This document shows, piece by piece, positions 4,096-55,150 of a stretch of 64,000 bases of DNA. A program made the translations under genes and the position numbers. The stretch is from Polytrichum commune. Taxonomy: Eukaryota > Streptophyta > Polytrichopsida > Polytrichales > Polytrichaceae. The notes below the pieces were generated by a model, which was not told where the DNA came from, ran no database searches, and saw only the letters and a program-made list of their open reading frames with translations. Location: assembly GCA_950295325.1 (NCBI GenBank), contig OX485806.1, positions 46,433,169-46,497,168 of the forward strand, given 5' to 3'. How positions within the stretch are numbered: the first letter of the stretch is position 1; every line of letters begins with the position of its first letter.

Positions 4096-5620
4096 TCTTC
4101 CAACGTATGTTATCTTAAAACTTTCGTTTAAGGCTTAAATAGATGCTTTGAACACTACCTACCAATTCATATATTTGGACCGATCGGCCAAATTCCGGAG
4201 GTCGATCCACAAACTAAGTTTGGATCTGGCATCTCTAACCTTCTACCAACCTATGGTAGAGTTTTCAAATCATTCTAACCTCTTTCATATTTCTGACCAA
4301 CTAGCATTTTTGGTTAGATTAGCCAACTTCCGGAGGTGACTATTGCAAACCAAGTCCGGATCTGACCTCCTTAACATTCTACCAACCTATGGTAAAATTT
4401 CCGAGCCATTTTGACCCTTTTCATATTGCCGACCAGCTAAAGTTTTTGGTCAGATCCACCAACCTTTGAAAATGTATTTTGCATATCAAGTCCAGATCTG
4501 ACCTGTCTAACTGTCACAACCCTTGCTAGCCCCCCTTGACAATCTTGCCAATTTTCAATTCTAGCAAAGGTTACGAGTGGCTAACCATTCGCATTCCGCC
4601 ATGCTAATGGTTAGCTCCTCCTACCCCGGACCTTATAGTTCATAGGAGGGAACCAACCCTCCTACTTTGCTTTAGGGACTCACCCCTTAATCGGTAACCC
4701 ATTCCTAGATGTGGACTTCCATCCATGGAAGTCCAATCCCATGTTGATCATCGCGTTGCCGGAGCAACACTACAACAACCCGAACCATACTAGGCAACTA
4801 TGGCCTCACATTGGGCCAATGCCCATGGAGGCCGTGCCGTTCGGCCTCGGGTGGGTGAGGCCACACCACCTCACCCGTATAAGCCTCTGGGACTTCACGC
4901 GGGGCCCCTACCCCACCGTCAACCAACCTCTTGTCTCTCTACCAAGAGTTGGGGCCAAGTGGACATTTTCCTTTAGCTGCTGGGCCTAGAACCCCCCCAG
5001 CAGCTTCAGACCATCATAACTTCCTTGTATGATGTCTGATCATAACAACCAACCACTCCATGTTCATCTACGCTTCACGTAGATGCCGATGGACTCCTCA
5101 CTTGCTCCATTTGAGCAAGTCTTGAGGAAGTTATGCCTATTTGAACCTTGGCAGTCCCGGGAATCACTCCCAGGCACTGCTGTACCAGGGCGCTGTCCCG
5201 GGACAGCGCCCCACTCAAATGGCCATAACTCCTAGCTCACACCTCCGATTGAGGTGTTCTTTAGCTTTCTAGAATCACCACGCCATGAGCTACGCATAGC
5301 TCATGGCCTTACCCTTGTGCCTCCTAATCTTCGTGGGTGGGAGGCGTTCCCAACGCCCGGGGCCCTCACCCACAGTAGGATCACTTGGGCCCTCTCACCA
5401 ACGGCGCCACAAGTCCCGGGTGTCACTCCGGGGTCCCCCTTGTGCCCATGGTGTTTCGGGCACTCCTCATGGAGAGGTGCGCGACACTAACCTTCTACCA
5501 ACCTATGATACAGTTTTCAGGCCATTTGGACCACTTGCTCTGGATGTCCTCCCACGAGTGTCACGTCCGCGTATACCCACCCTCTCTACTTCGTACTGCA
5601 TTCCTAGGTGGTACATCGCA
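4096..5620. repeat. Tandem repeat of about 136 bp, split by a solo LTR
   Basis: The landmark 'ttctaccaac' recurs at 4241, 4377 and 5492. With the 975-bp LTR and its 5-bp duplication removed, the last falls about 136 bases after the second, so the unit is about 136 bp. A weaker unit starts near 4096. Units share 'cggaggt', 'tccggatctg' and 'accaactag' blocks but have diverged. The array was present before the family C LTR entered it at 4512. Confidence 0.6.
4512..5486. mobile_element. Solo LTR, family C (chromovirus LTR)
   Basis: The segment starts TGTCACAACC, ends GTGCGCGACA and is flanked by the perfect 5-bp direct repeat CTAAC (4507-4511 and 5487-5491). Length is 975 bp. No internal region adjoins it, so it is a solo LTR left by LTR-LTR recombination. 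Related copies lie at 33736-34646, 47863-48681, 48682-49653 and, inverted, 55966-56938, where the LTR follows chromovirus integrase and chromodomain remnants; that defines the family. By that orientation this copy reads on the minus strand. Confidence 0.9.
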
Positions 5621-9550: not shown

Positions 9551-10488
9551 TGTGGTACTTTTGGGCCACCCCCTTTCGAGGGAGCCTAAAAATATCACAC
9601 AAGCCCTTCGATGAAGATGGCCTGCACTTGCAGGCACCCAAGCCGAACCCGGATGATAGGTGTATAACGTGAATAGTTAGATTTTTTAAGGGAGATTAAA
9701 TATGCGTCGTAGTACCTCCGGAGGTTGGGCCTTAGTTTTTTACTAGTGTGGCTCTAAACTCCACTAACCAATTTCATATCTAGTTCTAACCATAACCTAC
9801 AACCTATTCTACGCGCAGACGCACCAGCCTTGAAACCAAGGCAATCCTAATTTGTGAATTATGATGGTTCTGATACACACCAACCGGGTGTGACTCATAC
9901 CACCCTAGTTCAACGAACGGAATAACGACAATTTGATGGACCATTCAATTATTCCTATTTTTTTTATTTAGTTCTATTTAGTTTTCTAAGCGGGGGAACT
10001 TGGCCTAAGTCCCACCCTTCACACAAATTCCTTCTTAATTACTTACTTTCGTTTGCACGTCCTACCTCACTACATTCACATATTAGGCATCACCCCTTAC
10101 CTGGTTGGCGCACCTCTTATCTTGGAACCTTCTAAGGCCTCGTGCAGGTCCTTTGAAGGTTGAGTGACATCTCAAACCCATTCGAACATCAATGGTTTGA
10201 AGGGTGGTATCACTATACCGAGTTAAGTTTCCGATTCGGGTCTCTTGCCAACAAGGGTTCACGATTTATTTTGTATATTTTGATTGTTAAATGTGTTTAC
10301 ACTGGATAGACCACGAAATGCAACTCAATGGGACCAGGGTGACGGGCGACCTGTAGGTTCAATTTGTTGCGCAATCTTCATAAATTGGGGCCATTACTCC
10401 CAATCTATGGGGCCAACAACATAATAGTGGATTCGCGGGTCATTAATTCCACCTTTCTACCAACAACATTAAGAGTGGTTATGTAGGT
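9551..10488 (-). mobile_element. Element B 3' LTR, outer part (before the A insertion)
   Basis: This begins with the B terminus TGTGGTAC and matches 51744-52684 almost base for base. That paralogue runs on uninterrupted through 'gttatgtcggtgattaatcc', whereas here the sequence stops at 'gttatgtaggt' and element A begins at 10489. The remainder of the LTR resumes at 19909. A GC-rich, protein-free block with 'cctccggaggttgggcc' near 9716 is shared by all B copies. Confidence 0.88.
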
Positions 10489-10885
10489 TGTCACGTGAGG
10501 CGACATCGAGGGCTAAGTCACGTCAAATTAGGAGTAAATGGACTCTATTAGGAGTCCATGTGTGTTTGGATGGATTATGGACTCCATTGGGAGTCCTAGT
10601 TAGTTGTTCATCCACTCCATGGATGAAATCCACATAGGATTGGAGTTATGTGGAGAGGAAGGCATCTTGACTTGCCATTGTTGTCAAGTCAAGTCTTGTG
10701 AGTGTATTTTGAGAGAGAGAGAGCTTGTTGTTGCTATCTTATGGCTATGGTGTAGTAGATCATGAGTAAAGCCTTTGAATTCTTTCTCCATCACTTGCAC
10801 TCTTGGATTCTCCCTTTGTGGAGTGAGAGATAGCTTGACTCTTGTGTGTGAATTTTAGAGTTTCTTAAGCTTTGTAAGGAGACTT
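10489..10885 (+). repeat. Element A 5' LTR (shared part)
   Basis: This segment matches 19454-19849 with about 8 differences in 397 positions by my count, including one indel. It opens with TGTCACGTGAGGCGACATCG and holds a 'gagagagagag' run near 10710 and a short inverted repeat 'cttgacttgcc...gtcaagtcaag' near 10670. The LTR very likely continues past 10885, because the only strong TATA box is at 11011, but the 3' copy diverges at 10885/19849, so the true LTR end and the primer-binding site cannot be placed. Confidence 0.8.
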
Positions 10886-11010
10886 CTTAGTTTCTTGAGC
10901 TCGGAGAGAGAAACCCTCATACTTGACAACAATTGCATTTATTTTTCATTTTTGGTTGTATTTCTGAGCTAGAAGGGCCCAGTAGTGGGAGCAAATGAGT
11001 GATACAAGAG

Positions 11011-11018
11011 TATAAAAG
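11011..11018 (+). promoter_or_regulatory. Candidate TATA box of element A
   Basis: The octamer TATAAAAG lies about 520 bp inside the 5' end of element A and about 770 bp before the Gag start codon. Position and sequence suit a plant Pol II core promoter at a U3/R boundary. The matching region is missing from the 3' LTR, so it cannot be confirmed by LTR comparison. Confidence 0.45.
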
Positions 11019-11264
11019 CTTAGTTTGCAATTCCTTGCAACCCTCAAGGAGATTTTGAGAAAAATCTTCACATTTCTCTTTTGGTGTCTCTTTGTGTTTT
11101 CTTGAATTGTTGATGGTTGAATCTTGAGACCAAATGGAATCTCAAGTCACATCTTTATTGCTTGCAAATTGTGGAAGCAAAGTTTAATTTTTGTTCTTTT
11201 AAAACAAACACAACAATAAAATAAAACAACAATAAAATAAAAATCCGATTTGTTTTTAATTGTT

Positions 11265-11288
11265 GAGCTCCGGACGGATCCGGAGCTC
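11265..11288 (+). promoter_or_regulatory. GC-rich leader hairpin of element A
   Basis: GAGCTCCGGA and TCCGGAGCTC form a perfect 10-bp stem around CGGA, in an otherwise AT-rich leader. The same GGAGCTCCGG core recurs at 11302-11311, so alternative or intermolecular pairing is possible. Retroelement leaders often hold such stems for dimerisation, packaging or primer placement; that role is inference. Confidence 0.45.
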
Positions 11289-11786
11289 ACCGGACCCTCT
11301 TGGAGCTCCGGTTCTGCAAGGGGGCGGGCGGCGCCAACCAGGCCCAGGTAAGCCTCTTCATTTTTTTATTTTTTTATTTTAAAAATAAATAAAAAACATT
11401 ATTTTTATTTTTATTTTTCATTTTCACATTTTTACTTTCACCTTTCAAACTTGGCATTCAATTCTCACAAACTTTGAGGTTCAAATTTGGGGGCATACTA
11501 GCTCGGATTGGAGTGAAATTTGAGCCTAATTTATGTGAAATCTTCCTAGGAGTCCATTGGTGCAATTAGTTTGTTGATTGGAGTCCATAATCACCTTGGA
11601 AATTAACATTTTCAACGCTGATTTTTTAATTTTAATTACCAATCTCAAACCTTTGCACAATTTTGGAGTTCTGGGGGCCTAAATAAACACTTGGCATTTG
11701 GCAAGGGATTGCCATTTAGATAGCCCGCAACAGGTGCAGGTTGCCATTACCTTGTTGATAGTTGCCGGTACTCAAGTGATTATTTT

Positions 11787-14024
11787 ATGGTGCAAACTAG
11801 GAGCCGATATTATCGATCTCCATCACCAGATTACTTGGAGGACGTGCATACCACAAATCTTGAGCCAGAGGTAGATACCAACGAGGCTTTTGAGCCTATT
11901 TCGGCGTTGGACACCACTAGTAGGCTTCGGATTTGGAGTGTTGGCACGTTCGACGAAATGGACGACGATCACCACGGTTCAGTGCGTGATCGGTTCTCAG
12001 GTCGAGCTGGGGGCATTTCCTTGCCCGATTGGAAACTCCGGTTTCGTACCTGGATTAAGGAGAAACGCCAAAGGTCTTCCAATTTCAATGATTGGTATGC
12101 TTTTGAATTTCTGCCTCAGCATTTGAAGTATGAGGCACTCCAAACTTACGAACGCTGGACTGAGGGTCATCAGCGACAACTTCGGGAGGTGGAGCAGTAT
12201 TGGGAGGCCCGGGTTGAGCTTATTTCAGCCCTTAAAGATGGGGCCATTGCCACCTTAGCTCCACCCACCTTAAAGGAGGAGGATCTATCGGAGGAGTCTA
12301 AGGACCAAGAACTGGCCCTTGGGCCAATAGTGGCTGGCAGTAGCACGGCTACCCTTTCACGGATGGCACGTGCTACACAGGCAGCATTGACGGCTGTTGG
12401 TCCACCACCTCCATTTAATCCCCTTGCTGAATTTGTCGCACATTTGGAGGTGGAGTATGGTGGATTTGGGCGAGACCAAATGCAGCGCATTCAGGATTTC
12501 CACAGAGAGGAGGATGACACTCCACGGACCATGTATACACGACTCGCACGCTTTGCTGTTGAGTCGGGAGGTGTTTTTGCTGAGAGTCAGCTTGTCAAAA
12601 TCTTCTTGTCTAAGATTGACAAGCGGCTACTTGAGTTGGCATCACCTCGGATTATCCTCGATTATGAAGGCAGAGCTACGCTTGCACAAGCGTTTGCCGT
12701 GGTTGAGAGATGTGATCGGGCTCTCTGTCAACACGATGCCACAGACATGGTATCTTGGATGACAGAGAGTACGAAATCAAGAAGAATTGTCACAGCTACT
12801 AGTAGTTTAGCTGAGACTCAAACCGTTAAGGAGCAAAAGATTTTGCATTGTTGGGGTTGTGGAGAAGCTGGTCATACGAAGAATGATCCCAATTGTCCTA
12901 AGAAGAAGAAAACCCAGCCTTTGGGAAAATTAAAACAAAAGATAGAACCAGTAAAGGCAGGGGACAATTCTAAGAAGAGACAATTGAAATGTAACCATTG
13001 TGGTGGCACTAATCACGATGTGGATCATTGTTTCCAACTTCATCCTGAGATGCGGCCTGCTAGTTATGTCACTGGCAAATCTCCAAGGGAGCAGAGTCTT
13101 GAGGCTAAGGTGGCAGAGCTTGAGCAAAAGCTCAAATCTTCTGCATCTTTTGCTCAAATTTATGAGCCGCATGCGGGTGGGGGCACCTCGGGTTCGGACA
13201 TGTATATGTTTGGGGCATCTAGAGAGGTGGTGGCTGCGGCTTCTACTCGATCACAAACATTGGCAAATGGGGTGGCTTCTTCAAGTGGTGGTAGCAACGA
13301 GGTGTCACATCCTCGCCATGCCGGACCAGCGGATCAAGTTGGTCAAGCACGTTTACCTCTCTCATTTGGATTGGTAGACACTATTGTTGTTGGGGCAAAA
13401 AACCCTGTACCTTTGAGAGATGGGGATTCCATCTCGAAGGATGTTACGCAGGCATTGGCATATAAAATTCTCCATATGCCAATTTTCTCGGGTTCGGAGT
13501 TGATGGCTCCGGATTTCAAGCCTGCTGGAGTTTTCCATTTAGCTGGGAAAATGTTAGAAGGAAAGGCGGATTTGCCATCCCTTCAAGTATCCCAAGCTAT
13601 TGTTGACGTACCTGTGGCTGAGGAGGTGGAGGACTTAGCCAATTTGCGAGCGAGCCTTGCGGATGCGGCGATCATTGCTTTTGGTAAGCACACTGATATT
13701 CCTCCATCAACAATTTCAGCAGTGGACACGTCATTTTCGAATTATGCAGCGGGAGCGGCATATCTTACAGATAGTTCTGCAAGGCCTGCGCGCGAGCGGC
13801 ATAATTTGCAACCTGGAGTTGTACGGCTGATGAACGACAAATCTTTGTTTGTCGTTTCACGCGCGGATATGCCTATTATTCGTGCTACACCACTGAGAGT
13901 TATGATGGATTCCGGTGCTCAACCGGTTATGATTGGCAAAGGATTTGCTGACAGTCTTGGATTGACGCCAGCAAAACTTAGATCCTTGTCCATTCACAAT
14001 TGTGACTTCAGTAGGGGGCACTGA
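11787..14024 (+). pseudogene. Element A Gag and protease (first part of the polyprotein)
   Basis: This open frame of 745 codons starts at the first ATG after the leader. Residues about 60-320 are Gag capsid-like sequence (for example LPDWKLRFRTWIKEKR, FEFLPQHLKYEALQTY). Two zinc knuckles follow: C355-x2-C-x4-H-x6-C with an unusual last spacing, and C402-x2-C-x4-H-x4-C. A coiled-coil-like stretch (about 435-455) and a long low-conservation linker lead to the retropepsin active site MDSGAQPVMIGK (Asp708). In a living element it would form the particle, bind RNA and cleave the polyprotein. A frameshift near 13990-13996 moves the true frame to the next one, so the last ten or so residues are off-frame and the protease continues in the neighbouring entry. 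Confidence 0.88.
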
Positions 14025-14922
14025 ACGTGCAACAGGTTACACCAAGGCACCTCTACGTTTGATTTTTAATGTGGGGGCAGGACCTACCTACATCCATTTG
14101 TCAATGAAGTGTGTTGTTACTAATGCTACCAACTATGATATACTTGTTGGTCAGCAAGCTCTTTATCCACTTGGCTTTGGTTTGGATAATTGGACTGAAA
14201 AGGCATGGATTAGACCGGGATGATCTTCTAGAGATGGCAGGAAGGTATTTATTCCTGTAGCATTTGCAGCTACTTCTATGACTATGGTTGCGGAGACAAT
14301 GTTTGGTTGCAGCGGTTCAGTTGCGGATTTGCCTTATGCTCCAGTTTTGTTGGAGGAAACATTGGACTACGCTTGTAATGCAGCAGAGCAACAAATTTTG
14401 GCATCTTTACAAATTTCTGCTCGACATTTCAAGGATCCACCTCCACCACGGCGTACTCCTAAGGAGTTATCCGACCATTGTCGACACATTGTAGCGGATT
14501 TGGGGCTTGGAGAGACACCTCCAACGTCATCCTCATTTTCTTTTGCTCAACCCATTCATTGGCAACCACCACCTGAAGGTATTGTCCTTGTAGAAATCTT
14601 TGGGGGCATTGGCACAGGTTTGGTGGCAGTGTTGGAGGCTGGGATTACAGTTAAGCGATATATTCATGTGGATAATGGATATGCAGCCAACAGAGCCGTC
14701 CGACACCACATTCAACAATTGTTGTTGAGGTACCCCACACAATTGTCAGCCACTGCCATTCTTGGATGTTGTAGTCAACTTCCTCAAGATGTCACTATGA
14801 TTAGTGATGAGGATTTGAGAAGATTGGGCCACGTGGATTTAATTATTGCAGGATGGCCTTGTCAAGGGCAGGAACTGGCCAGGGTTTGGATGATCCTAGG
14901 TCTAGTTTGTTCGCGGATTTGA
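14002..14922 (+). pseudogene. Element A protease end and methyltransferase N-terminal half (motifs I-IV)
   Basis: This is the +1 continuation of the polyprotein. The protease end (ERATGYTKAPLRL, TNYDILVGQQALYPLGF) runs to a TGA at 14221-14223, and the same frame continues without a gap. After a proline-rich linker comes the C5-cytosine methyltransferase: motif I EIFGGIGTGLVAVLEAGI (about 14590-14643), then RYIHVDNG (motif II-like acidic end) and motif IV VDLIIAGWPCQG with the catalytic Cys codon at 14860-14862. The phrase GIGTGL...LGI/AGI...RYI is close to DNMT3. Right after PCQG the frame is lost: against copy 2, about 16 bases are missing near 14865, so the last 15 or so residues are off-frame. 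As part of a polyprotein the enzyme would be released by the protease or act as a fusion. Confidence 0.88.
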
Positions 14923-15875
14923 TGCGATTGACACAATGGTGGTTTACCCACCAATCAACTCCGCCAGAGTACATTTTTGAAAATGTGCCATTATTGGATG
15001 ATACACGGCACAAAGTGGTGAAGGATGGTGAGTACATTAACCAAATTCTGGGTACTCCAACATTTCTGGATGCTGCATCGTTGGGATCCTTTGCTCATCA
15101 GCCTCGTTGGTTTTGGACCAATTTGGTAACACCTCAGGTACTGTCAGCGGTGATCGCCCGCATTCCCCGCCTTATGAATCACAAGGTGGATGACATTTTA
15201 GATGCTCATCGTGTTTCTTTGGCAGTTACCAAGGATGACACCTTGCCATTTGCATTAATTAACAAGGTGGGCATTCCGAGAGGTGCACTACCTACTTTTG
15301 TGACATATCCACGGTTTTTTGCATTTCGATCTCGTGGACCAAGCATGGTTTGGGATTCAAAATCCCAAACTCATGATGAGCCTACGGCAGATGAGCGGGA
15401 ACGAGCCATGGGTTTTCCTACAGGCACCACGGCTGCTCATGGGCTTCAGGAAGGTCAGAGACATTTCCTATTGGGACAAGCTATGAATCTCAATAGCATT
15501 GTGTGGATAATTGGAATTTGTCTTGTTGCTCAACAAAGTATGGATGACCAATTGCTTCCTCTGAGGGCAGAGAACAATGGTCAGGGGGCAATGGAGCCGC
15601 AATCCAAGGATCACATTGAGGTCAATGACACCGAGGGATTATTTTCTTTGAAACAACAGGTTGCGGAAGAGTTTCGAGCCCAACGTGTTTTTTCGGCTTT
15701 GGCACAAGATTTTGGGAAGTTGGAGGCACATAAAATATTTCCACTTCTATTTCTTGGTGACACTTCATATGTGGGTAGCTATTTAGCTACACAAACTGAT
15801 TGTAGTGGAGAGGATACGCATTTGGATTCAAGTATAGATGATGGAGGCAAAGGTGTTGCCCTCTCCACGAACTAG
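14853..15875 (+). pseudogene. Element A methyltransferase C-terminal half (motifs VI-X) and linker
   Basis: This resumes the methyltransferase just after motif IV. GLDDPRSSLFADLMRL matches the post-PCQ helix, FENV (Glu codon 14979-14981) is motif VI, and QPRWFWTNL matches the motif VIII region of DNMT3 (R-x-FWxNL). ERERAMGFPTGTT is motif IX-like and LLGQAMNLNSIVWIIG (from 15471) is motif X. The order I-IV-VI-VIII-X is canonical, unlike the rearranged order of plant DRM enzymes, so DNMT3-like is the best family. No ADD, PWWP, BAH or UBA domain is visible. About 110 residues of linker follow, with DDQLLPLRAE and FRAQRVFSALA also present in copy 2, before a TAG at 15873-15875 that interrupts the frame into RT. 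The ATG at 14853 is not a natural start. Confidence 0.88.
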
Positions 15876-15887
15876 CAATCACAGGCT

Positions 15888-17084
15888 GTGCTGGCACCAA
15901 GTGGCAATCCTTCTATGAAGAAGGAAACCACGGAGTTTGACGATTGGCCAATTGAAGTGGGGCCAAAACTTACTGGTGTCGAAGCACAAAAGGTACGGGC
16001 ATTTATTCGCTCTTACCGTAATTGTTTTGCCTTTAGTCTTCATGATCTTGAAGGATATAAAGGTAAACCTGTTCGTATTCAACTCGAGGACGACCATCCT
16101 ATTTTCAGACGGCCGTACAAACTTAGTACATCTGAAACGTTGGGTGTTCAAACTCGATGTCAAGAATTATTGGCAGTGGAATTGATTGAACTCTCCAATG
16201 GAGAGTATGCTTGTGCCACGGTTATGCCTTCAAAGAAAGATATCTTTGGCAACTGGACGGAAAAACGGATGTGTGGTGATTATCGTCCAGTCAACCGTAA
16301 GACCAAGCCGGATCGATATCCAATGCCGATGCCAGAGGAGTTGTTTGATGCACTGGGATTTGCTAGAATCTTCAGCACTCTGGATTTGAGGTCTAGTTAT
16401 TATCAATTACCTTTGTTGTTGGGTGATCGGGTGAAGACCGCATTTTGGGAAATTGATAAAGATGGCAATGATCAACTTTATCATTGGAAATTTTTGCCAT
16501 TTGGTCTCAAGAATGTACCAGCTGAATTTCAGCGGGTGATGGACCAATTATTGGCTGGTTTACCGTTTGCTAGATGTTACATTGATGATGTTATCATCTT
16601 TAGTAATAGTCCACATGATCATGTGAGACATTTACAAGCGGTATTTGAACGACTACAACGGTGGGGACTCCGTTTACATCATAGCAAATGTAAGTTTTTC
16701 CATGATCAATTGCCCTATTTAGGCCACATGATTGTTTCTGGCGGTCTTGGTGTGCAACAGGGGAAGGTGGATGCTTTGCATAAAATTCCCGCACCTAGTG
16801 ATGTACCACGACTTCGGGCATTTCTAGGATGGGCAAATTATTATAGAAGGTTTGTCAAAAACTTTAGTTTGATTGCCAAACCTCTCACCATTCTCACGGG
16901 GAAAGACCAACCATGCATTTGGAGTCGGGAACAACAACATGCATTTGATACATTGAAGCAGAGGCTCGGTTCAGCGCCAGTGCTTCGACGCCCGGATGTG
17001 TCTAGAGCTTTTCAATTGCACACGGATTGGAGTGCAGTGGAGTTGGGAGCGGTATTGACACAGAAAGATGAAGAGGGAAAATAA
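15888..17084 (+). pseudogene. Element A reverse transcriptase and start of RNase H
   Basis: In frame with the preceding segment. The run EFDDWPIEVGPKLTGVEA opens the domain. RIQLEDDHPIFRRPYKLS, MCGDYRPVNRKTKPDRYPMP, FSTLDLRSSYYQLPL, WKFLPFGLKNVPAEFQRVMD and the catalytic YIDDVIIFS (YIDD at 16578-16589) are the classic Ty3/gypsy blocks. FLGWANYYRRFVKNFS and the connection follow. RNase H begins at LHTDWSAVELGAVLTQ and is cut by TAA at 17082-17084. The enzyme would copy element RNA into cDNA in the particle, beside the fused methyltransferase. The segment is otherwise well conserved. Confidence 0.95.
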
Positions 17085-17087
17085 TAT

Positions 17088-18305
17088 GTGGTGGCTTATG
17101 CATCTAGAAGCAATAATAATGCTGAATCTAATTATTCTTCTTATGAAGGCGAGGCCTTGGCGGCCATTTGGGCCATTGCACATTTTCGACCTTATTTGTA
17201 TGGGCAAAAATTTACTTTGGTGACTGATCATCAGCCTTTAAAATGGCTTATGGAATCAGATAAATTCACTGGGAAACTTGCTAGGTGGGCATTGTTACTT
17301 CAAGAATATGACTTTGAAGTTGTTCACCGAGCAGGAATTGCCAACTTGGATGCAAACGGATTGTCTCGCAATCCAGGTCCTTCAGATGAGGATTTAACTC
17401 GAGCCAGGTGGCATGGAGATTGTGATCGTGAGGCAGTGCCGGGTTGGCATGCTGCCACATATCTCACAATGATGTCGGGATTGGCTGCTGAGATCCTTGT
17501 GGAAGAACAAAATGAGGAGGTTGATAAATATGTCGTTGTTAGTGATGTGTGGGAAGACCAGGCGATCTTGCACGAACTTCAACAAGGGATATTTCCTCTT
17601 GGACTATATGCTATGGAGCGAGATAGAGTTAGCCATCAAATAACAAGGTTTCATTGGGCAAACGGCTTGTTATTTCGTGTGTGGCCAAATGGAACGAGGC
17701 GCATCGTTCCAAGGCCAAATCAAAGAGCTTCATTAGTGCGGCAAGTGCACGAGGAGCATGGACATTTTGGAGTGCGAAGGACACACTCTATGTTGCGCAA
17801 CCAATATTGGTGGACTGGGATGTATCAACAGGTTGCCACTTATGTTTCTAGGTGTGAAGCGTGTGACCGGGTCAGGTCAAGTTTTAATACTTTATCACCC
17901 CAACTTCAGCCTTTACCTATTATGGGTTTGGGATATCGTTGGTCTTTGGATTTTGCCGGACCACTTACTGTCACTCCACGTGGGGCAAAATATGTACTTG
18001 TGATGGTGGAGCATTTTAGTAAGTGGATTGAACTCGTGGCTCTTCCCCAAAATTCCTCAGAATTGGCGGCTGTAGCATTTCTTGATCGAGTTTTGGCACG
18101 GTTTGGAGCACCTGCAGAGGTGTTGACGGATCAAGGGAGAGAATTTCTTGGATCTTTCGAGGCTTTGTGTACTAAGGCTTTGATTGATCATCGAACAACT
18201 TCCAGAGATCACCCTGAGGCAAATGGCTTAGCTGAACGAGTTGTTCAGACTGTCAAGCGCGGTTTGCGGAAGTATGGGTTGTTTCATGGCAACCATCGCG
18301 ATTAG
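17088..18305 (+). pseudogene. Element A RNase H and integrase
   Basis: Directly continues the frame after one stop. RNase H blocks are YASRSNNNAESNYSSYEGEA, TDHQPLKWL and HRAGIANLDANGLSR. The integrase zinc-binding domain is HEEHGHFGVRRTH...CEACDRVR (HHCC). The catalytic core has Asp in WSLDFAGPL, Asp in LTDQGREFLGSF and Glu in HPEANGLAERVV, the D,D-35-E triad. An acidic spacer (about residues 145-165, EEQNEEVDKYVVVSDVWED) separates RNase H from integrase. A TAG at 18303-18305 ends the open stretch; integrase goes on in the next entry. The domain order PR-RT-RH-INT places the element in Ty3/gypsy. Confidence 0.95.
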
Positions 18306-18659
18306 GACTTGATGTTACCATGGATAGCAATGGGTTACCGTTTCAGCAGGCAAGCATCTTTGGCATCCTATAGTCCTTACCAACTCTTGTATGGACGGGA
18401 ACCAATTTTACCTAGCTCTGTGCGAGAGAAATTGGCTCATGTGGTAGACTTGGATGATCCAGATGTTTGGGCTCAATGTCTTCATGACCGAGCATAATTC
18501 TTTCAAAAGGCCATGCCTATGGCCATGGAGAACTTAAACATAGCTCAACATCGTGATACATTACGGTATGCCCAGATCCGCAGTGGAGCTTATCGACCTT
18601 AGGTTCGTAGATTTTCCAAGGGGAATTATGTTTACTTACAACGGGAGGCGCCTACGTCA
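18306..18659 (+). pseudogene. Element A integrase C-terminal region, with stops
   Basis: The same frame reads LPWIAMGYRFSRQ, YSPYQLLYGREPILPSSVRE, a helical basic stretch (MAMENLNIAQHRDTLRYAQ) and RRFSKGNYVYLQR, the usual C-terminal integrase fold that precedes a GPFxV-type block. Stops at 18495-18497 (TAA) and 18600-18602 (TAG) break it. It links the catalytic core to the PHD-bearing tail. Confidence 0.85.
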
Positions 18660-19019
18660 TTGGATGTCAAGGCTGGGCGCACAATTTTGCGGATAAAAGA
18701 TGTTTTACCAAGTGGTATATTATTGCTTGAAGGCAAGGATGGACGGGAATGTCGTGAGCATTCAAAGAATTGTGCTCCATGTCACCTTCCCATCGACGGC
18801 TCTGTGCATCCCGAGTTGGCGGCTGTACCACAGGGTCTGCCTTGTTATGTGTGTGGAGAGAAGAAAGGAGCTGCAACAATGTTATTGTGCGACCATTGTC
18901 AACGTGGATGGCACATGGCATGTTTGACACCTCCCCTTTTGACTCTTCCTTCTGGCAATTGGGTTTGCCCTCGTTGTTGGAAAGCCTCCCACTCCATGGC
19001 CGTTAATGCTCATGATTAG
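18660..19019 (+). pseudogene. Element A integrase tail with C-terminal PHD finger
   Basis: This 119-residue tail continues the integrase frame (LDVKAGRTILRIKDVLPSG) and ends with a PHD zinc finger at 18843-18977. The Cys4-His-Cys3 ligands are visible in order: CYVC, CDHC, WHMAC and CPRC, with the usual aromatic before the last pair (NWVCPRC) and LTPPLLTLPSG in the loop. PHD fingers read histone H3 tails, often H3K4 state. At this position chromoviruses carry a chromodomain that steers integration, so a targeting role for the PHD finger is plausible but inferred. The stop at 19017-19019 is the likely natural end of the polyprotein. The zinc ligands are all intact. Confidence 0.88.
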
Positions 19020-19333
19020 GGACTTTGTGGATGTTTGCCACATGTCTTAGTGGTGAAGTTGTTATCTAGTTGGTCGGAAGTTTTATGGGATTGAAAATCA
19101 CATTGGGAAAGTTATCAAATAATTCAACATAAATTGTTGAAGACGATTAAGAATGGGGCTCACATTGCACCCAGCCTACAGTTCTTGGGTTACTTCCTCA
19201 ACCATAAATTTAATTCCTTAGATTACCACTACCCAATTGGGTTGTACAGATGTAGCAACAACTTCATCATGTTCAACACCTCTCCCGATGAGTGTGTTTG
19301 TTCCTAGCCGATTGGAGGGGCTCCTTATCTGCT

Positions 19334-19341
19334 AGGGGGGG
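19334..19341 (+). promoter_or_regulatory. Candidate polypurine tract of element A
   Basis: AGGGGGGG lies about 315 bp after the polyprotein stop and about 110 bp before the recognisable 3' LTR. G-rich tracts of this kind prime plus-strand synthesis in LTR elements. It is not directly next to a TG, and the intervening 110 bp includes a copy of the element's own terminal 48 bp, so placement is uncertain. Confidence 0.4.
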
Positions 19342-19403
19342 CACTTGAAGAGGTGGTTGTTTAGCATATTAGTTTGCTATATTTATTTTGCTAATTGATG
19401 TTG

Positions 19404-19908
19404 ATGACGACACTCGATCTGTTGTGTTTAACGATCTAAGTTTACACGACAGCTATCACGTGAGGCGACATCGAGGGCTAAGTCACGTCAAATTAGGAGT
19501 AAATGGACTCCATTAGGAGTCCATGTGTGTTTGGATGGATTATGGACTCCATTGGGAGTCCTAGTTAGTTGTTCATCCACTCCATGGATGAAATCCACAT
19601 AGGATTGGGGTTATGTGGAGAGGAAGGCATCTTGACTTGCCATTGTTGTCAAGTCAAGTCTTGTGAGTGTGTTTTGAGAGAGAGAGAGCTTGTTGTTGCT
19701 ATCTTATGGCTATGGTGTAGTAGATCATGAATAAGCCTTTGAATTATTTCTCCATCACTTGCACTCTTGGATTCTCCCTTTGTGGAGTGAGAGATAGCTT
19801 GACTTTTGTGTGTGAATTTTAGAGTTTCTTAAGCTTTGTAAGGAGACTTTTCGATCTGTAATGACGACACTCGATCTGTTGTGTTTAACGATCTTAGTTT
19901 ACACGACA
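19404..19908 (+). repeat. Duplicated terminal 48 bp of element A
   Basis: Positions 19404-19451 and 19861-19908 are the same 48-base sequence with one mismatch, both ending TTACACGACA. The second copy is the outer end of the element next to the target repeat. The first abuts the 3' LTR start with only 'gc' between. The result looks like an LTR-end to LTR-start junction or a templated filler. Confidence 0.75.
19454..19908 (+). repeat. Element A 3' LTR
   Basis: The segment begins TATCACGTGAGG (TGTC with one change) and matches the 5' LTR through 19849. It then has a different 59-bp tail ending TTTACACGACA at the insertion border. Its 455 bp is close to the roughly 440 bp solo LTR of this family at about 59400-59838, so this may be the normal LTR length, with the 5' copy altered downstream of 10885, or the reverse. 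No TATA box lies inside it. Confidence 0.75.
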
Positions 19909-21957
19909 CGGTGATTAATCCGACTTACCACACACAAAACTTGCTAATAAATGAAGCTACTACCACAAAACATACCAAGGGCCCCGAAAAAAATGGAGTT
20001 GGATATTCCCTTGGCAGTCAAGTAGTCAAGCCACTTGACCTTACGAGATATGTGAGTGGGTTTAGAGATGCGTACCTTAGCCGCGCTTCCTCCAACCCTA
20101 AATGGAAGGCTAGCGTTAGTAAATTTACCTCAATTCTCCTCGGTTGATTTGGGCTCGATGGAGGCCGAGCCGCTACTTCCTTCCTTGCTCCACTTCCCGA
20201 GCGTCGACCTTGCCTCCTTCTTTGTAACTAGTTTGGTAGTAAGCGTACCTTAGTTAACAATTAAAATATAAAGTATTTATTCTGCACTGTAATTTAATCC
20301 TAAGCATAATATTTATACTTAGTGCACCTAATTATCTTTCCAATGATCTAAAAATCACTTTAATCGGATAAGAATTGCAAAAGTTATGAGGGTTGGAAGT
20401 GTGAGGTCGATTCAACCGACCCTTCCAATCCACCTATCTACCTTCTAACTTCAAAAATTCATAGCACATTCCTTACTACTTGGATCTAGACTTTCCTTGT
20501 ACCATTGGAAAGCTATGAACAAGTTCTAACTAGGATAATTATGACATCAGCAGGTTAAGCTAATAGAAATTCAGCAGACTCCTTGTAACACAACAGTCAA
20601 TCAAGAAGGCTTAGACTATGTATCTGGCCTTCAACAATTCATATCTAATTCAAATCATGCTTAAATCAAACGTTCTATATGACCCTGGAGAGATATTAAA
20701 AATATGTATTTGATAAAAATATGTGATTAGAAAGGTAAGCCGAAGTGAACCCAGCAGATCCTCTGTAATGCAGTAGTCAACCAAAAGTTCTCAAACTATG
20801 TGTTCCAACTTCCACAATTCATATCTAATTCAAATCATGCTCAAATCAAATGTTCTAAGCCATTTTGGAAAGCTACACAAAAGTTCTACTTGGAAAAAAT
20901 ATAACTTCTTGGAATTAAAATTTCCATTGGGCTCGCAGGTCTGATCCAACAGCCGCTACCCACAAGACCACCCAGTTTTTTTACTCCATCTTTGAAAATC
21001 CATAACTAATTGTCATCTTAACCAAATCACAAATGGGAAACGGCTATGGATAGCTATAGGAAATCTCTCTAAGAGAAAAATGATAAGTATCTTTTTCTAG
21101 CTTCTGAACTAAGCCTTCAGGGCATTGGCAGATGAGGTCTACAATGCCTCCACTCAAAATTCTACCATCCAACCTACCTCTACAAAAGAAGGAATCATTT
21201 TGTTGGTGTGTTAATAAACACACAACCTAACTAGGAGAGAGAGTAGAGGAGGTTCTCAAGCCTTTCTTTTAGGCCATTGAGAATGCATGCTAAAGGATTT
21301 TTTCCTAACTACATTGAAGCAGGGCTTCCCCCAAAAACTAGAAAAAGATAGAGATCCTACAAGGTGGAAGGAGGGGTTTTTAAACCCTCTCACAAAATGG
21401 TTGGACCCCTCCTCCACCGGATCCATTTTTCAAACCCTTTCCCAAAATTTTGGCTCGGGGGTTTTTCCGGTTGAGGTTGCCACCCTCTCGCCGAGGTGGC
21501 TCCGACGGGAAACCTTAGAAATCTTTCTAATTTTTCCGCCATCGAGTTGGCAAGGGGGCAAGTGGGCAAGTGGGCAAGTAGCCCCCTTGCTCTCTTTCTT
21601 TTTTGTCTTCAAAATTTTTCAAGCTGATTTTGTCTTCTTACGCAAAACACCTCCAATAGTCTTGTGTGCCTCACACTAACTAATAAACTAACACTTGCTT
21701 AGCTAGCATCTACTAACATTTGCTTAATAGCTAGCATCTACTAATATTTGCTTAGCTAGTTGTTTTTACTAGCTAGCATATTTTTTTCTATTTTGCTATC
21801 TTCTAGCACTACTTAGTTTCATTTTGACCTTCTTTCTTCTAGGCTAAATGCTAAATGAACTAATTTTCCCTAAATTCCCTATCAATTATAACTTTTAATG
21901 CTAACATTCTAACTAAAAGTGATCCCGCGGAGTGGTGGACCACTCAAAGGGTTCACA
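19909..21957 (-). mobile_element. Element B 3' LTR, inner part (after the A insertion)
   Basis: This resumes the LTR exactly where 10488 left off and matches 52677-54287 at very high identity until 21523. It contains three diverged tandem units of about 180 bp (landmarks near 20455, 20635 and 20815, with 'cttcaacaattcatatctaa' and 'aaatcatgctcaaatcaaa'). Near 21703-21780 are short 'gctagcatctactaa' repeats, and it ends at AAGGGTTCACA (21957). No open frame here looks like a protein. Confidence 0.85.
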
Positions 21958-27429: not shown

Positions 27430-28615
27430 ACTCAAATTCCCATGATAAGAAGAAGATACATGTTTGTTTTAAGTGCCAAGAATTACGAAATTATGCCAAC
27501 AAGTGTCATAATTTAAGGATATTGCAAGATTATGTACCCTTATGTGGAAATTATAGAATACCTTGTCATGATAGCCCAATTACTGGTCATTTTGTGAATG
27601 ATGTCATTGCATGCAAAATGTGGCAATCCGGTTATTGGTGGCCTACTTTATTTGCAAATTGTACTACTTATACTAGGCAGTGTGACATGTGTCAATGAAT
27701 AGGTCGGCCCACCCACTCATCGGCAACGCTTTTTACCTCAATTTTACTCTTGGCCCTTTTGAAAAATGGGGTATCAATTTTGTGGGTCATATTAACCCCC
27801 CTAATCATCATGGACAACACCGTTATATTTTAGAAGCTACTAAATATGTCACCAAGTGGGCCCAAGCTGAGGTCATTAAAACTAATGATAAAGTAGTTGT
27901 TGCTAAATTCTTTAGTGAAAATATTATGGCTCATTTTGGTTGCCTTAAAGAGCTAGTGAATGATAGAACCACATACTTTGTCAACGATGTTATTGAGGAG
28001 TTAACCATTAAATTTAAAATCAAGCATAGATTGGCCATCCTTTATCACGCACAAACTAATGGCCAAATTGAGAAAAAAAATGGTATATTTTGTAAAATCA
28101 TCACCAAAACAATACAAGGCTCTATGATTGATTGGGATTCCAAATTAATTGATGCATTATCAACGATCGCATTGTGTATAAAGTTACAATTAATTTAAAA
28201 CCCTTTCAATTAATGTATGGTCAATAGGCAATCCTATCCACTAAATTTAAATAATCTTTATTAAGGATTGCAATTGATGAATGTTTGGAAAACGTGGAAA
28301 CTTTAGAGGTGAGATTTAATCTCCTCGAGAAATTAGATGAAACCCAAAGTCAGGAGTATTTAAACACCATTGCCATTCAAAAATGGTGCAAATCCTATTA
28401 TTAGAGTAAAATGAAGGATAAGAGGATAAGACCTACAAACCTCATGCTCCTTTATGATAGAAAATTTCCAAAGAAATTTAGATTACACTAGCTAGGTCCA
28501 TATAAAGTGCGTGTAAATCACGCAAACGAATCCTTTGATCTTGAAAATTTGGGAGGCAATGTTTTCCCTACCCGCCTTAATGGAAATCACATCGTAGGTA
28601 ACTGAGTCAAGTTAC
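27430..28615 (+). pseudogene. Element F integrase remnant (PR-RT-RH deleted)
   Basis: Decayed gypsy integrase. The zinc-binding part reads GHFVNDVIACKMWQSGYWWP with CDMCQ at 27550-27700. The core (27740-28150) has FEKWGINFVGHINPPNHHGQ, LVNDRTTYFVNDVIEEL and HAQTNGQIEKKNG, the positions of the D, D and E residues. The C-terminal region (LGPYKVRVNHANESFDLENL) ends near 28615 at VKLPKLK. Between the zinc knuckle of Gag and this point there is no protease, RT or RNase H, so about 2.5 kb has been deleted. Several stops and frameshifts are present. Confidence 0.8.
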
Positions 28616-46904: not shown

Positions 46905-47266
46905 GTAGTTTCCATTAAAATGAGAGTATATTAAGCTGGGAAATCGACTCATTTAGGTTGAGTCTACCTAAATGAGGACAATATTTTGTCAATTTAGGTT
47001 GAGTCGACCTAAATGAGGACATTATGTTATCAATTTAGGTTGAGTTGACCTAAATGAGGACAATATTTTGTCAATATAGGTTGAGTCAACCTAAATGAAG
47101 ACAATATTTTGTCAATTTAGGTTGAGTCAACCTAAATGAGGACAATATGTTAGTCAATTTAGGTTGAGTCAACCTAAATGAGGACAATATGTTGTCAATT
47201 TAGGTTGAGTCGACCTAAATGAGTTGATTTCCCAGCTTAACATACTCTCATTTTAATGGAAACTAC
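46905..47266. mobile_element. MITE-like foldback with seven 41-bp palindromic units
   Basis: The ends GTAGTTTCCATTAAAATGAG and its reverse complement form terminal inverted repeats of about 45-60 bp (one side has 'agtatattaagctgggaaat', the other 'atttcccagcttaacatact'). Flanks GACGT (46900-46904) and GACGG (47267-47271) are a near-perfect 5-bp duplication. Between them are seven units of 40-42 bp starting at 46951, 46991, 47032, 47073, 47114, 47156 and 47197, each with the hairpin TTTAGGT-n7-ACCTAAA. The whole would fold into a series of stems. No coding capacity. Confidence 0.75.
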
Positions 47267-48681: not shown

Positions 48682-49653
48682 TGTTGCAACCCTGGCTAGC
48701 GTCCTTAACAATCTTCCCAATTTTCCTTTCTAGCAAAGGTTACGAGCGCTAACCCTTTGCATTCCGCCATGCTAATGGTTAGCTCCTCGTACCCCGGACC
48801 TTATAGTTCATAGGAGGAAACCAACCTTCCTACTTTGCTTTGGGGACTCACCCCTTAATTGGTAACCAACCCTTAGATGTGGACTTCCATCCTTGGAAGT
48901 CCAATCTTATGCTGATCATCGCATTGCCGGAGCAACACTACAACAACCCGAAGCATACTAGGCAACTATGCCCTCACATTGGGCCAATGCCCATGGAGGC
49001 CGTGCCGTTCGGCCTCGGGTGGGTGAGGCCACACCACCTCACCCATATAAGCCTCTAGGACTCTACGCGGGGCCCCTACCCCACCATCAAGAAACCTCTT
49101 GTCTCTCTACCAAGAGTTGGGGCCAAGTAGACATTTTCCCTTAGCCGCTGGGCCTAGAAGCCCCCAGCAGCTTCAGACCATCATAACTTCCTTGTATCAT
49201 GTCTATTACTAACAAACAACCATTTCATCTTTATCTACGTTTCACGTAGATGTTGATGGACTCCTCACTTGCCCCATTCGGGCAAATATTGAGTAAGTTA
49301 TGCCTGTTTGAACCTTGCCAGTCCCCGGAATCACTCCTAGGCACTGCTGTACCAGGGCGCTGTCCGGGGACAGCGCCCCACTCAAATTGCCATAACTCCT
49401 AGCTCACACCTCCGATTGAGGTGTTCTTGAGCATTCTAGAATCACCCTGCCATGAGCTACGCAAAGCTTATGGCCCTACCTTCGTGCCTCCCAGTCTTCG
49501 TGGGTAGGAGGCGTTCCCAACGCCCGGCACCCTCACCCACACTAGGATCACTTGGGCCCTCTCACCAACGGCGCCACAAGTTCCGGGTGTCACTCCGGGG
49601 TCCCCCTTGTGCCCATGGTGTTTCAAGCACTCCTCATGGAGTGGTGCGCGACA
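48682..49653 (-). mobile_element. LTR, family C (3' LTR of the left-arm chromovirus)
   Basis: Starts TGTTGCAACC, ends GTGGTGCGCGACA (972 bp). The following 'ctcacccccaccaaac' is the reverse complement of the polypurine tract GTTTGGTGGGGGTGAG, so this is the 3' LTR of a minus-strand element C. It is highly similar to the inverted copy at 55966-56938. Confidence 0.85.
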
Positions 49654-50454
49654 CTCACCCCCACCAAACGGAGTCGATGCCCTCATCGACTATGCTCGTA
49701 GTCGGCACACCAATTCTCAAGTTGCCATCATCTATGGTGCAACATTGTGTTTACCTTAGGGCGCGACCCCTACAATGCATGTTCAAATTTGGCATAGTCC
49801 CAAAGGTGTCGTTCCTAGGTGGTCCGTTAGCGACCTTGGATTTCTCCTCCAAGGACCTAATCTACACTAGACCCAACTACTTTGGGACTCACTTGGGTTG
49901 CCCCGCCTTTGGGGCCTCCCCTGTTAGGCTCCACTAGCCTAACACGACACATCTAGGCGAGACCTCAACGTTTCTACTAAGTTGTTTCGGTTGCAACTCC
50001 GAGATGGCTTTCCATTGTTAAGGCACACCTCGATCGCACGGGGGTGATGCCAAGTCCCGCCCGACTCGGTTCCCACTTTGCTTTTTCAAGACATGGGTTC
50101 ATGACTCCCATGCGCCAACTCTCGTTAGCTCGCGGGTAGCACTTTTATGAGCACGCGCCATCACCTTGTCCCCGCCCGGACAAGCCCACAACTAAGAAGT
50201 TTCTTGGTTTTATCCAAGGCCCCTCCAAGCCATGGCCCCCAATTACTCGGCTTACCCAACCTAGTTTGGCATGTCTATTCCCCCTCTTCCACTAACCAAA
50301 CACAAGTACAAGACTAAGACCTCATCTCATACTTTTCTCTTTGCACCACTAAAGTTTGGACTTTATTCCCTCAAGCCAAAGAATAAATACATGTTGTGGA
50401 GTAATTAGCCTCAAAGCTAAGTGTGCTACTAGCGTCTCTCCCCCACTAAAGGAG

Positions 50455-51148
50455 ATTGATGTCCTCATCAATGCCTACGCTTCATTTTATTGGAATGTCT
50501 AGCCTTAGTTTCTTCAAAGTACTTTACCAATTCCTTGGTGTTCATCATGTCTCTTGCCGCTACCCAAGCGGCTTCTTTCTTATGGTATCCACACCATTTC
50601 ACCAAGTATTCCTTTGTACATTTTCTTTCCTTTTCACTTGGGCTTCTTACATTTGAGGATGCCCTCTTACCTCATGTTCCAAATGACGTCCACAAGGTGT
50701 CGTCCTTAAATGGCTTTAGGAATGAGACATGAAATGTCCGATGCACTTTGATCTCGGGCGGTAATTCCAACTTATATATGTTCTTGAACACTTGTTCCAC
50801 AATGGAAAACGAAGCTCCAATTTAGGATATGAACTTTGGAATGAGGCCTTCCGGCTAAGTGAAGTTGTTCACATTCAACAACATCTTTTGGCCCACCTCA
50901 TTCTCCACTTCGCGTCTTCCGGCATTGATTTGGACTCCGTAGTACCTTCGGGCTTTCTCCACCAACAACTTGGTCATCTCCAAGACTTGTTTACCATCCT
51001 TGGCCAAGTCCTTACATCTTGGTTGAACTCTAGTGTTGAATGTGCCCCCTCGAGAGCTAGGTTAATAGGTTGGAGCTAGCGCCTCCACTCCATAAGCCAC
51101 CACGAAAGACCACCCCTTCGTGGCCAAGTGCGTGGCTACATTGCAATT
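50455..51148 (-). pseudogene. Element C pol remnant, left arm
   Basis: The minus strand encodes the same integrase C-terminal and chromodomain stretch as 54434-55150 (for example ALEGAHSTLEFNQ on the reverse of about 51015-51060). It is interrupted at 51148/51149 by LTR B. Stops are shared with and additional to the right arm. It carries no RT or catalytic core. Confidence 0.75.
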
Positions 51149-51743
51149 TGTGGTACTTTTGGGCCACCCCCTTTCGAGGGAGCCTAAAAGTATCACACAA
51201 GCCCTTCGGTGAAGGTGGCCTGCACTTGCAGGCACCCAAGCCGAACCCGGATGATAGGTATATAACGTGAGTAGTTAGATTTTTAAGGGAAATTAAATAT
51301 GCGTCGTAGTACCTCCGGAGGTTGGGCCTTAGTTTTTTACTATTGTGGCTCTAAACTCCACTAACCAATTTCATATCTAGTTCTAACCTTAACATACAAC
51401 CTATTCTACGCGCAGACGCACCAGCCTTGAAACAAAGGCAATCCCAATTTATGAATTGGGATGGTTCTGATACACACCAACCGGGTGTGATTCATACCAC
51501 CCTAGTTCAATGAACGTACTAACGACAATTTGATGGACCATTCAATTATTCCTATTTCTTTACTTAGTTCTATTTAGTTTTCTAAGCGGGGGAACTTGGC
51601 CTAAGTCCCATCCTTTACACAAATTCTTTCTTAATTATTTGATTACGGTTGCACCTCCTACTTCACTACATTCACATATTAGGCATCATCCCTTACTTGG
51701 TTGGTGCACCTCTTACCTCGGAACCTTCTAAGGCCTCATGCAG
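51149..51743 (-). mobile_element. LTR B fragment (terminal 595 bp)
   Basis: Starts TGTGGTACTTTTGGGCC directly after the element C sequence 'ttgcaatt' and follows the B LTR until 'ggcctcatgcag', where a second, complete B start takes over at 51744. It is slightly more diverged from the 9551 copy than the next one is. Confidence 0.85.
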
Positions 51744-54287: not shown

Positions 54288-55150
54288 GAATGAAACTAAG
54301 GTTTAGCACGACCTTGCATTCCCAAGTGGATGAGAAAGCGGAGGATGTGAATGGAGTCTTGAAGCAATACTTGAGGAACTTGGTGGGGGCGGACCAAGGA
54401 GATTCGGCGGACTATGTGGGTCGAGCGGAGTGTAATTGCAATGTAGCCACGCACTTGGCTACCAAGGGGTGGTCTTTCGTGGTGGCTTATGGAGTGGATG
54501 CGCTCCAACCTATTAACCTAGCTCTCGAGGGGGCACATTCAACACTAGAGTTCAACCAAGATGGTGAGGATTTGGCCAAGGATGGTGAACAAGTCTTGGA
54601 GATGACCAAGTTGTTGGTGGAGAAAGCCCGAAGGTGCTACGGAGTGCAAGTCAATGCCGGAAGACGCGAAGTGGAGAATGAGGTGGGCCAAAAGGCGTTG
54701 TTGAATGTGAACAACTTCACTTAGCCGGAAGGCCTCACTCCAAAGTTCATGTCCAAAATTGGAGCTCCGTTTCCCATTGTGGAACAAGTGGTCAAGGACA
54801 TATATAAGTTGGAATTACCGCCGGAGATCAAAGTGCATCCGACATTTCATGTCTCATTACGAAAGTCATTTTAGGACGACACCTTGTGGCCCGATCACAA
54901 GCAAGTGATTAGGCCACCTCCCGACCTTGTGGACGTCATTTGGAACATGAGGTAAGAGGGCATCCTCAAGTGTAGGAAGCCCAAGTGAAAAGGAAAGAAA
55001 ATGTACAAAGGAATACTTGGTGAAATGGTGAGGATACCATGAGAAAGAAACCGCTTGGGTGGCGGCAAGAGACATGGTCAACACCAATGAATTGGTGAAG
55101 CACTTTGAAGAAACTAAGGCTAGACATTCCAATAAAAAGAAGCGTAGGCA
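54288..55150 (+). pseudogene. Element C pol remnant, right arm: integrase end and chromodomain (chromovirus)
   Basis: An open stretch to 54722 reads MKLRFSTTLHSQVDEKAEDV, LKQYLRNLVGADQGDSADYV, ALEGAHSTLEFNQDGEDLAK and NAGRREVENEVGQKALLNV, the end of a gypsy integrase (the codons after the catalytic Glu onward). After a TAG come PEGLTPKFMSKIGAPFPIVE and PPEIKVHPTFHVSL. A decayed chromodomain follows (ILKCRKPK, ETAWVAARDMVNTNELVKHF) with stops and frameshifts at about 54950-55130. A chromodomain at this position defines chromoviruses. The upstream catalytic core is missing, cut by LTR B. Confidence 0.85.

Follow-up and report, generated by a model that had tools for sequence, protein, structure and literature searches.

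Does a moss retrotransposon carry a cytosine methyltransferase of its own, and if so, how would the enzyme be produced and on what would it act? The question was raised by a 64,000-nucleotide stretch of the Polytrichum commune genome (GCA_950295325.1, contig OX485806.1, positions 46,433,169 to 46,497,168, forward strand; here called the window), in which an initial annotation had placed a Gypsy retrotransposon with a DNMT3-like DNA methyltransferase (DNMT) at 10489-19908. With a probability of about 0.7, this insertion is a dead copy of a young, high-copy Gypsy-type family, encoding gag, protease (PR) and DNMT in one frame and, beyond a leaky UAG, reverse transcriptase (RT), RNase H (RH), integrase (IN) and a PHD finger in a second; its methyltransferase would be packed at the level of Gag and may methylate the element's own DNA.

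The methyltransferase and its place in the element

Methyltransferase motifs I, IV, VI, VIII-like, IX-like and X, as listed by the initial annotation, were all found and in order, distributed over two overlapping frames (14278-14922 and 14853-15875). The DNA methylase profile PF00145 was detected in relatives and missed in the window itself: Pfam gave no match with the two broken halves of the window copy, while PF00145 matched a metagenome protein that is 82% identical to the window DNMT (P0001, 1.1e-12) and a distant relative known at the DNA level (L001, 6.8e-12). NCBIfam added only 'dcm' below cut-off and one chance-level match. Using phmmer with P0001 against the PDB, DNMT3C, 3B and 3A came first (from 4.5e-10), followed by DRM (from 2e-5) and HhaI (from 1e-3), and a 24-row profile gave DNMT3A at 1.7e-18, DRM at 3e-8, HaeIII at 1.6e-7, DNMT2 at about 1e-4 and DNMT1 at 1.7. 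For an AlphaFold2 model of the related protein P0007, the Foldseek matches listed (best 50 of the 118 with E < 0.001) were all DNMT3 structures. PC, ENV and the stretch AHRPR...WTNL can each be aligned with the corresponding part of DNMT3, and the catalytic motifs are retained in the window family and L001; in a 24-row alignment (A3), ENV was present in 20 rows, AHR or AHQ in 20 and the string PC in 17, and several of the rows lacking a motif are fragments. The enzyme is thus closest to DNMT3 by profile and fold, a placement by similarity and not by a tree including host DNMT3 and DRM. A DRM origin was rejected, as the motifs run from I to X without rearrangement and the profile match to DRM is the weaker one; profile, fold and colinear motif order together uphold the DNMT3 class that had been proposed.

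The coding features of the window copy are as follows:

11724-13979, plus strand: gag and start of protease; first ATG at 11787, protease motif DSGAQP near 13905; protein 92.7% identical to that of copy L034 over 752 residues
14278-14922, plus strand: linker between PR and DNMT and N-terminal part of the methyltransferase with motifs I and IV (open frame, motifs)
14853-15518, plus strand: C-terminal part of the methyltransferase with motifs VI to X (open frame, protein homology, profile)
15519-15872, plus strand: variable tail of the first frame
15873-15881, plus strand: TAG CAATCA, conserved stop between the frames in a leaky type-I context (sequence; context after the accessible text of PMC2754532)
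15888-17081, plus strand: reverse transcriptase and start of RNase H (Pfam RVT_1, 2.3e-29)
17088-18302, plus strand: RNase H, H2C2 zinc-binding domain and DDE integrase core (Pfam)
18843-18977, plus strand: PHD finger, C-terminal to the integrase (PF00628, 2e-11)

RT, RNase H, H2C2, integrase core and PHD finger were detected directly in the window element by Pfam, and the order PR-RT-RH-IN, with the integrase after RNase H, is that of Ty3/Gypsy, as judged by domain scans and not by an RT tree with reference lineages. Both the Gypsy type and the position of the methyltransferase between protease and RT hold by domain order. The order gag-PR-DNMT-RT given by the initial annotation was correct; its list lacked the PHD finger.

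This PHD finger is also present in L001 (PF00628, 4.3e-10), where the stretch is 90% identical to that of the window at the protein level, compared with 84% for RT, and in the metagenome polyproteins P0216, P0219, P0220 and P0222; the DNMT part of these four was found by homology, PF00145 matching only P0220 (5e-4). After the integrase, Pfam scans of the window and L001 gave no chromodomain match, the PHD finger standing in that place. The best PDB matches of the PHD finger include CHD4, PHF12, UHRF1 and ATXR5, and several of these proteins read unmodified H3K4; binding of unmodified H3K4 by the PHD finger of the element is a prediction by analogy only.

A conserved stop codon between two frames

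The initial annotation assumed one original frame of about 2,400 codons, which had to be revised: copies with intact frames have two, of 1,386 and 1,047 codons stop to stop, separated by one conserved TAG. Six copies, chosen for their open frames and thus not a random sample, were fetched whole; the 1,386-codon first frame was present in 5/6 and the 1,047-codon second frame in 4/6, in the same frame and with one TAG between them. TAG CAATCA stands at this position in 30 of 30 aligned copies, 14 of which have no stop at all in the 1,046 codons preceding it, as well as in the window copy and in L001, where the first frame likewise ends with this sequence and the second starts in the same frame. 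In a four-row alignment of the window copy, L034, L038 and L001, ten bases at the stop (TAGCAATCAC) are invariant against a saturated synonymous background.

The stop of the 30 copies, the window and L001 matches the type-I readthrough signal, UAG followed by CARYYA. According to the accessible text of PMC2754532, this signal is UAG with CAA UYA, and plant reporters showed 32% readthrough with the site from tobacco mosaic virus and 11% with the one from beet necrotic yellow vein virus; the accessible text of PMC4132726 states that all six bases of the hexamer matter. The element has the same class of stop and hexamer as the tobamoviruses, at a Gag-DNMT/RT boundary instead of in a viral replicase gene (PMC2754532, accessible text).

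In homologous proteins that contain motif X, 39 of 90 end at one of three common C-termini before RT (22, 7 and 10 proteins), five continue into RT, four (P0219-P0222) have the DNMT before the integrase instead, and the remainder end elsewhere, some no doubt at contig edges; at the DNA level, the stop is documented by L001 and the Polytrichum genome only, the other two shared C-termini being known from proteins. With a leaky UAG directly after it, DNMT is expected at the level of Gag and RT-IN by readthrough, so that Gag-PR-DNMT would be the main product and RT-IN-PHD a minor extension. Stop suppression is also known from the plant element SIRE1.

The family, its relatives and the window copy

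The assembly that was searched comprises 407.8 Mb in 64 contigs, seven of which measure 42-78 Mb. Searching its six-frame translation with P0001 yielded 646 candidates, and the counts that follow, taken from the 79 that were scored, are lower bounds. All 79, which are copies other than that of the window, matched the full 546-residue query of PR tail and DNMT at 79-82% identity; 35 had no stop inside the DNMT region and 15 additionally a 1,386-codon open frame. In a genome search with PF00145 (123 of 353 candidates scored), further frame lengths such as 1,366 and 1,372 were encountered, which suggests more than one subfamily. Since searches based on DNMT cannot reveal copies lacking it, the RT of L034 was used as query, giving 2,488 candidates and 104 scored copies. 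In 61 of these, a P0001-type DNMT match ends exactly one codon upstream in the same frame, 11 more have a PF00145 match at the expected distance upstream, and 32 had neither; reading 1.3 kb upstream in the first eight of the 32 recovered DNMT in seven (tail only in two of the seven). DNMT therefore stands directly upstream of RT in 79 of the 80 RT copies examined, on seven chromosome-size contigs, a figure that leaves out 24 of the 104 scored copies, including that of the window itself. A single insertion of a host gene, with the other family members lacking it, was rejected on this count. The family is young and high-copy.

Compared with L001, the two DNMT parts have proportions of nonsynonymous differences (pN) of 0.29 and 0.21 and of synonymous differences (pS) of 0.74 and 0.80; the ratio of the corresponding rates (dN/dS) is about 0.12 in the first, N-terminal part, with dS saturated, and the second part is saturated. 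Among the 30 own-genome copies, pN/pS is 0.42 in the catalytic part, compared with 0.67 and 0.65 in the flanking linkers. The comparison with L001 is suggestive of purifying selection on both DNMT and PHD finger.

Beyond Polytrichum, a first protein search returned 66 matches and a third 37. Named hosts are Marchantia polymorpha (P0060, P0206, P0208, P0209, P0211 and P0213, two of them on contigs of 24 and 27 Mb), Calypogeia fissa (P0204), Sphagnum jensenii (P0062) and Closterium (P0223, and P0160 with motif X before RT). The other protein relatives are mostly unnamed proteins from metagenomes; P0003 was deposited with a bacterial metagenome-assembled genome (MAG). L001 (CADCWO010000201.1) is listed as a contig of a cyanobacterial MAG and is almost certainly of eukaryotic origin; its proteins are 55-63% (DNMT) and 84% (RT) identical to the family, with saturated synonymous sites. 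The two ends of L001 share 127 bp, an overlap of the kind that a circle or a loop in the assembly would produce. In P0216, P0219 and P0222, the DNMT lies between RNase H and integrase with a terminal PHD finger, which shows this domain in a second position. A tree of 23 DNMT domains, rooted at the midpoint only and leaving out P0216 and P0022 because of the motif-based domain cut, groups the window family with P0001 (99/99), joins two metagenome rows to Marchantia and Calypogeia (100/100) and sets P0219-P0222 apart as a group of their own. The protein-search matches listed name no Klebsormidium sequence, and viral contigs yielded no relative at the sensitivity used.

At its ends, the window copy has no plain long terminal repeats (LTRs); copy comparison revealed split direct repeats, and the plain form was rejected because the terminal 48-bp repeat of the window copy became intelligible only with the split-repeat layout of other copies. 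Repeats and target site are as follows:

10485-10488, no strand: left target-site duplication, AGGT, differing from the right copy by one base (empty site 52678-52681 reads CGGT)
10489-10922, plus strand: terminal repeat B1, beginning TGTCACGTGAGG; right boundary taken from other copies (B of 433-436 bp in 4/5 measured)
19334-19342, plus strand: polypurine tract AGGGGGGGC (sequence)
19345-19451, plus strand: split repeat A1, TTGAAGAGGTGG...ACACGACA (repeat comparison)
19448-19457, no strand: palindromic A-GC-B junction, GACAGCTATC in the window copy, GACAGCTGTC in 5/6 other copies and L001
19454-19850, plus strand: split repeat B2, truncated at its 3' end; identity with B1 98.2% over 395 columns
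19861-19908, plus strand: split repeat A2, reduced in the window copy to its last 48 bp by deletion of the 5' part
19909-19912, no strand: right target-site duplication, CGGT
51744-54291, plus strand: unoccupied copy of the target site (flank matching)

The layout B ... polypurine tract-A-GC-B-A was found in five of six copies, with A repeats of 104-106 bp and B repeats of 433-436 bp (563 in one copy). The sixth copy, L033, has the short form B ... A, ending after the first A, with a perfect 4-bp duplication; it could stem from a one-repeat circle or from recombination between two A repeats. In all five copies measured, A1/A2 and B1/B2 differ by at most two substitutions each and gaps of 1-3 bases, and these near-identical pairs mark the five insertions as recent. 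Since split repeats take the place of the two identical full LTRs expected of Ty3/Gypsy, the element is called Gypsy-type by domains. DIRS/PAT elements, which use a tyrosine recombinase, have split direct repeats with an internal junction as well; the Polytrichum element differs from them by its DDE integrase, H2C2 domain and 4-bp target duplications. The DIRS combination of a tyrosine recombinase and no target duplication was not found, the recombinase having been sought by general Pfam scans only; an rve integrase and 4-bp duplications were found instead. These duplications, next to outer ends that read TGTC...GACA, were present in seven of seven copies inspected, five perfect and two with one mismatch (the window copy and L037).

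The insertion itself comprises 9,420 bases. On its left, 9551-10488 corresponds to 51744-52681 (97.7% identity), and on its right, 19909-21522 corresponds to 52678-54291 (98.0%), so that an unoccupied target copy within the same window identifies 10489-19908 as a real insertion and shows the annotated coordinates to be exact to the base. The window copy is dead: two indels break its first frame, and there are several nonsense codons. With 98.2% identity of B1 and B2 it is older than the other measured copies. Of 7,295 bases compared with L034, 391 differ, and C>T plus G>A outnumber the reverse changes by 178 to 101 (direction assumed only), an excess that fits the expected decay of methylated cytosines.

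A second, older and broken element of the same DNMT-bearing kind lies at 57396-63461 on the minus strand, with protein identities to the family of 39-48% (gag), 50% (PR), 50-54% (DNMT) and 69% (RT piece), and has a stretch resembling a repeat within it at about 59493-59669. The target region of the insertion at 10489-19908 belongs to a repeat with two copies in the window (9551-10488, 19909-21522 and 51149-54291), which supplies the empty site, and within this repeat a unit of about 597 bp occurs three times (starts at 51149, 51744 and 9551). The window further contains an inverted 2-kb repeat (48682-50698 and 54924-56938, 93% identity) with another 1-kb copy at 4512-5492, a tandem array at 46951-47223 with a period near 41 bp, and a 169-codon open frame at 27689-28198 (plus strand) that resembles a Gypsy integrase core of a different lineage. 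Rfam gave no match within the window.

How the enzyme would be made and used

In the mechanism that we propose, most ribosomes would stop at the UAG and release Gag-PR-DNMT, while a minority would read through and add RT-IN-PHD. The methyltransferase would be packed into particles at the Gag level, in excess over RT, and reverse transcription would yield DNA whose A-GC-B repeat is opened by the integrase at the GACAGCTGTC junction. The PHD finger may steer insertion to a histone state, and the enzyme may methylate the fresh DNA of the element or its insertion site, which is the least sure step.

Several observations weigh against this proposal. Readthrough is judged from sequence alone; the 30 aligned copies are close kin and amount to one lineage, only L001 being independent at the DNA level; among seven further copies with DNMT upstream of RT, the stop is TAG in six and TAA in one; five of the 90 motif-X proteins (P0054, P0160, P0209, P0210 and P0215) continue into RT without a stop, which is therefore not universal in the wider group; and no stable conserved RNA structure was found 3' of the stop (z-scores of -0.9, -2.7 and -1.2, with differing folds). 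On the side of the enzyme, the structure model of P0007 is moderate (mean predicted local distance difference test score 72.8; four other models 47-62), the within-genome pN/pS of 0.42 is not strong selection, diluted perhaps by dead copies, and the DNMT of a Klebsormidium nitens element was inactive in yeast, a result called inconclusive in the main text of PMC5890265, since human DNMT3B was inactive too. In L055, one of the 80 RT copies examined, the upstream 1.3 kb contain no DNMT.

If the UAG were not read through, the second frame would have to be reached by reinitiation, internal entry or a spliced mRNA. This is unlikely: a Marchantia gene model (P0209) does join DNMT to RT, perhaps via a predicted intron, and own-genome copies have an ATG about 13 codons past the stop, but the frame is open directly after the stop and L001 retains the exact type-I leaky hexamer while having no in-frame ATG for about 110 codons, which speaks against simple reinitiation. 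A one-time insertion of a host methyltransferase gene into an ordinary Gypsy element, or a chimeric assembly, has practically no probability left; the broken frames of the window copy and the case of L055 would suit it, yet DNMT precedes RT in nearly all copies examined on seven large contigs, and the same order recurs in L001, in metagenome proteins and in Marchantia.

Two further alternatives concern the action of the enzyme. Catalysis may have been lost, leaving a DNMT3L-like structural or tethering part, as the inactivity of the Klebsormidium domain might suggest; the retained catalytic motifs in L001, the window family and most rows of A3, together with signs of purifying selection on the catalytic part, make this improbable. 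The domain might also act on RNA, either genomic RNA or the tRNA primer inside the particle. DNMT is made together with Gag, which binds RNA, inspection by eye revealed no clear tRNA-complementary primer site in the leader, and the main text of PMC5890265 raises an RNA target for the LINE type; against this, profile and fold are nearest DNMT3, and DNMT2, the tRNA enzyme, is far weaker (about 1e-4 vs 1.7e-18), so that only a slim chance remains for an RNA target. In animals, DNMT3 unites writer and chromatin reader (catalytic and ADD domains) in one protein. A bolder form of our proposal, to be regarded as tentative and rather doubtful, treats DNMT as a quasi-structural particle protein: many enzymes per particle would methylate the new DNA before or during insertion by the PHD-bearing integrase, writer and reader would be split over the products of a leaky stop, and insertions would arrive pre-marked, governing their own silencing.

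The closest known system is KnitGypsy-Dnmt3 of Klebsormidium nitens, described in the main text of PMC5890265 as a non-rearranged Dnmt3 in the Pol frame of an intronless Gypsy element with DIRS-type repeats, with Ka/Ks below 0.2 between copies and hence purifying selection on DNMT. Both families thus combine split DIRS-like repeats, Gypsy domains and a colinear DNMT3. The Polytrichum family differs in that a conserved leaky UAG leaves its DNMT on the side of Gag and in that its integrase is followed by a PHD finger, the words 'PHD' and 'protease' being absent from that main text (figures and supplement lie outside the comparison); it is also large and young, with relatives in liverworts and peat moss. 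As far as this comparison goes, the Klebsormidium element shares the defining trio, and the additions would be the leaky stop, the PHD finger, the large young population and the named land-plant hosts. SymbioDIRS-Dnmt3 and SymbioLINE-Dnmt of Symbiodinium are likewise retrotransposons with a cytosine methyltransferase, of DIRS and LINE instead of Gypsy type; the same main text reports de novo CG methylation in yeast for the SymbioDIRS-Dnmt3 enzymes and treats the captures as independent (PMC5890265).

The initial annotation knew of no land-plant family with this layout. No description of DNMT-bearing elements in land plants was found in the literature searched (subscription journals, Repbase and supplements lay outside the search); nothing on them was found in passages of PMC10508981, PMC5784723 and PMC10538959, and the accessible text of PMC6338049 calls methylase transposons absent from land plants such as tracheophytes. 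The same enzyme nevertheless occurs in records of Marchantia polymorpha, Calypogeia fissa and Sphagnum jensenii, and its kind is known from Klebsormidium (PMC5890265, main text). In the literature listings, no paper was recognised that combines PHD fingers in Gypsy integrases, readthrough and split repeats with an integrase. Chromoviruses carry a chromatin-reader domain at the C-terminus of their Gypsy integrase; the Polytrichum element shares a reader after the integrase, as a PHD finger instead of a chromodomain, and has a DNMT in addition.

The liverwort and peat-moss records mean that methylase transposons have made their way into land plants, among them Marchantia, a model in which experiments are feasible, and the stop-codon anatomy gives a sharp prediction, namely the enzyme at Gag level. 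The pairing of split repeats with a DDE integrase is relevant to the replication of such elements. Plants defend themselves against retrotransposons chiefly by silencing them through cytosine methylation, and an abundant, recently active element with a methyltransferase of its own reverses the usual story. If pre-marking by particle-borne enzyme holds true, new insertions would carry a self-imposed epigenetic identity, and the family, through its many copies, would act as a permanent source of de novo methylation within a plant genome.

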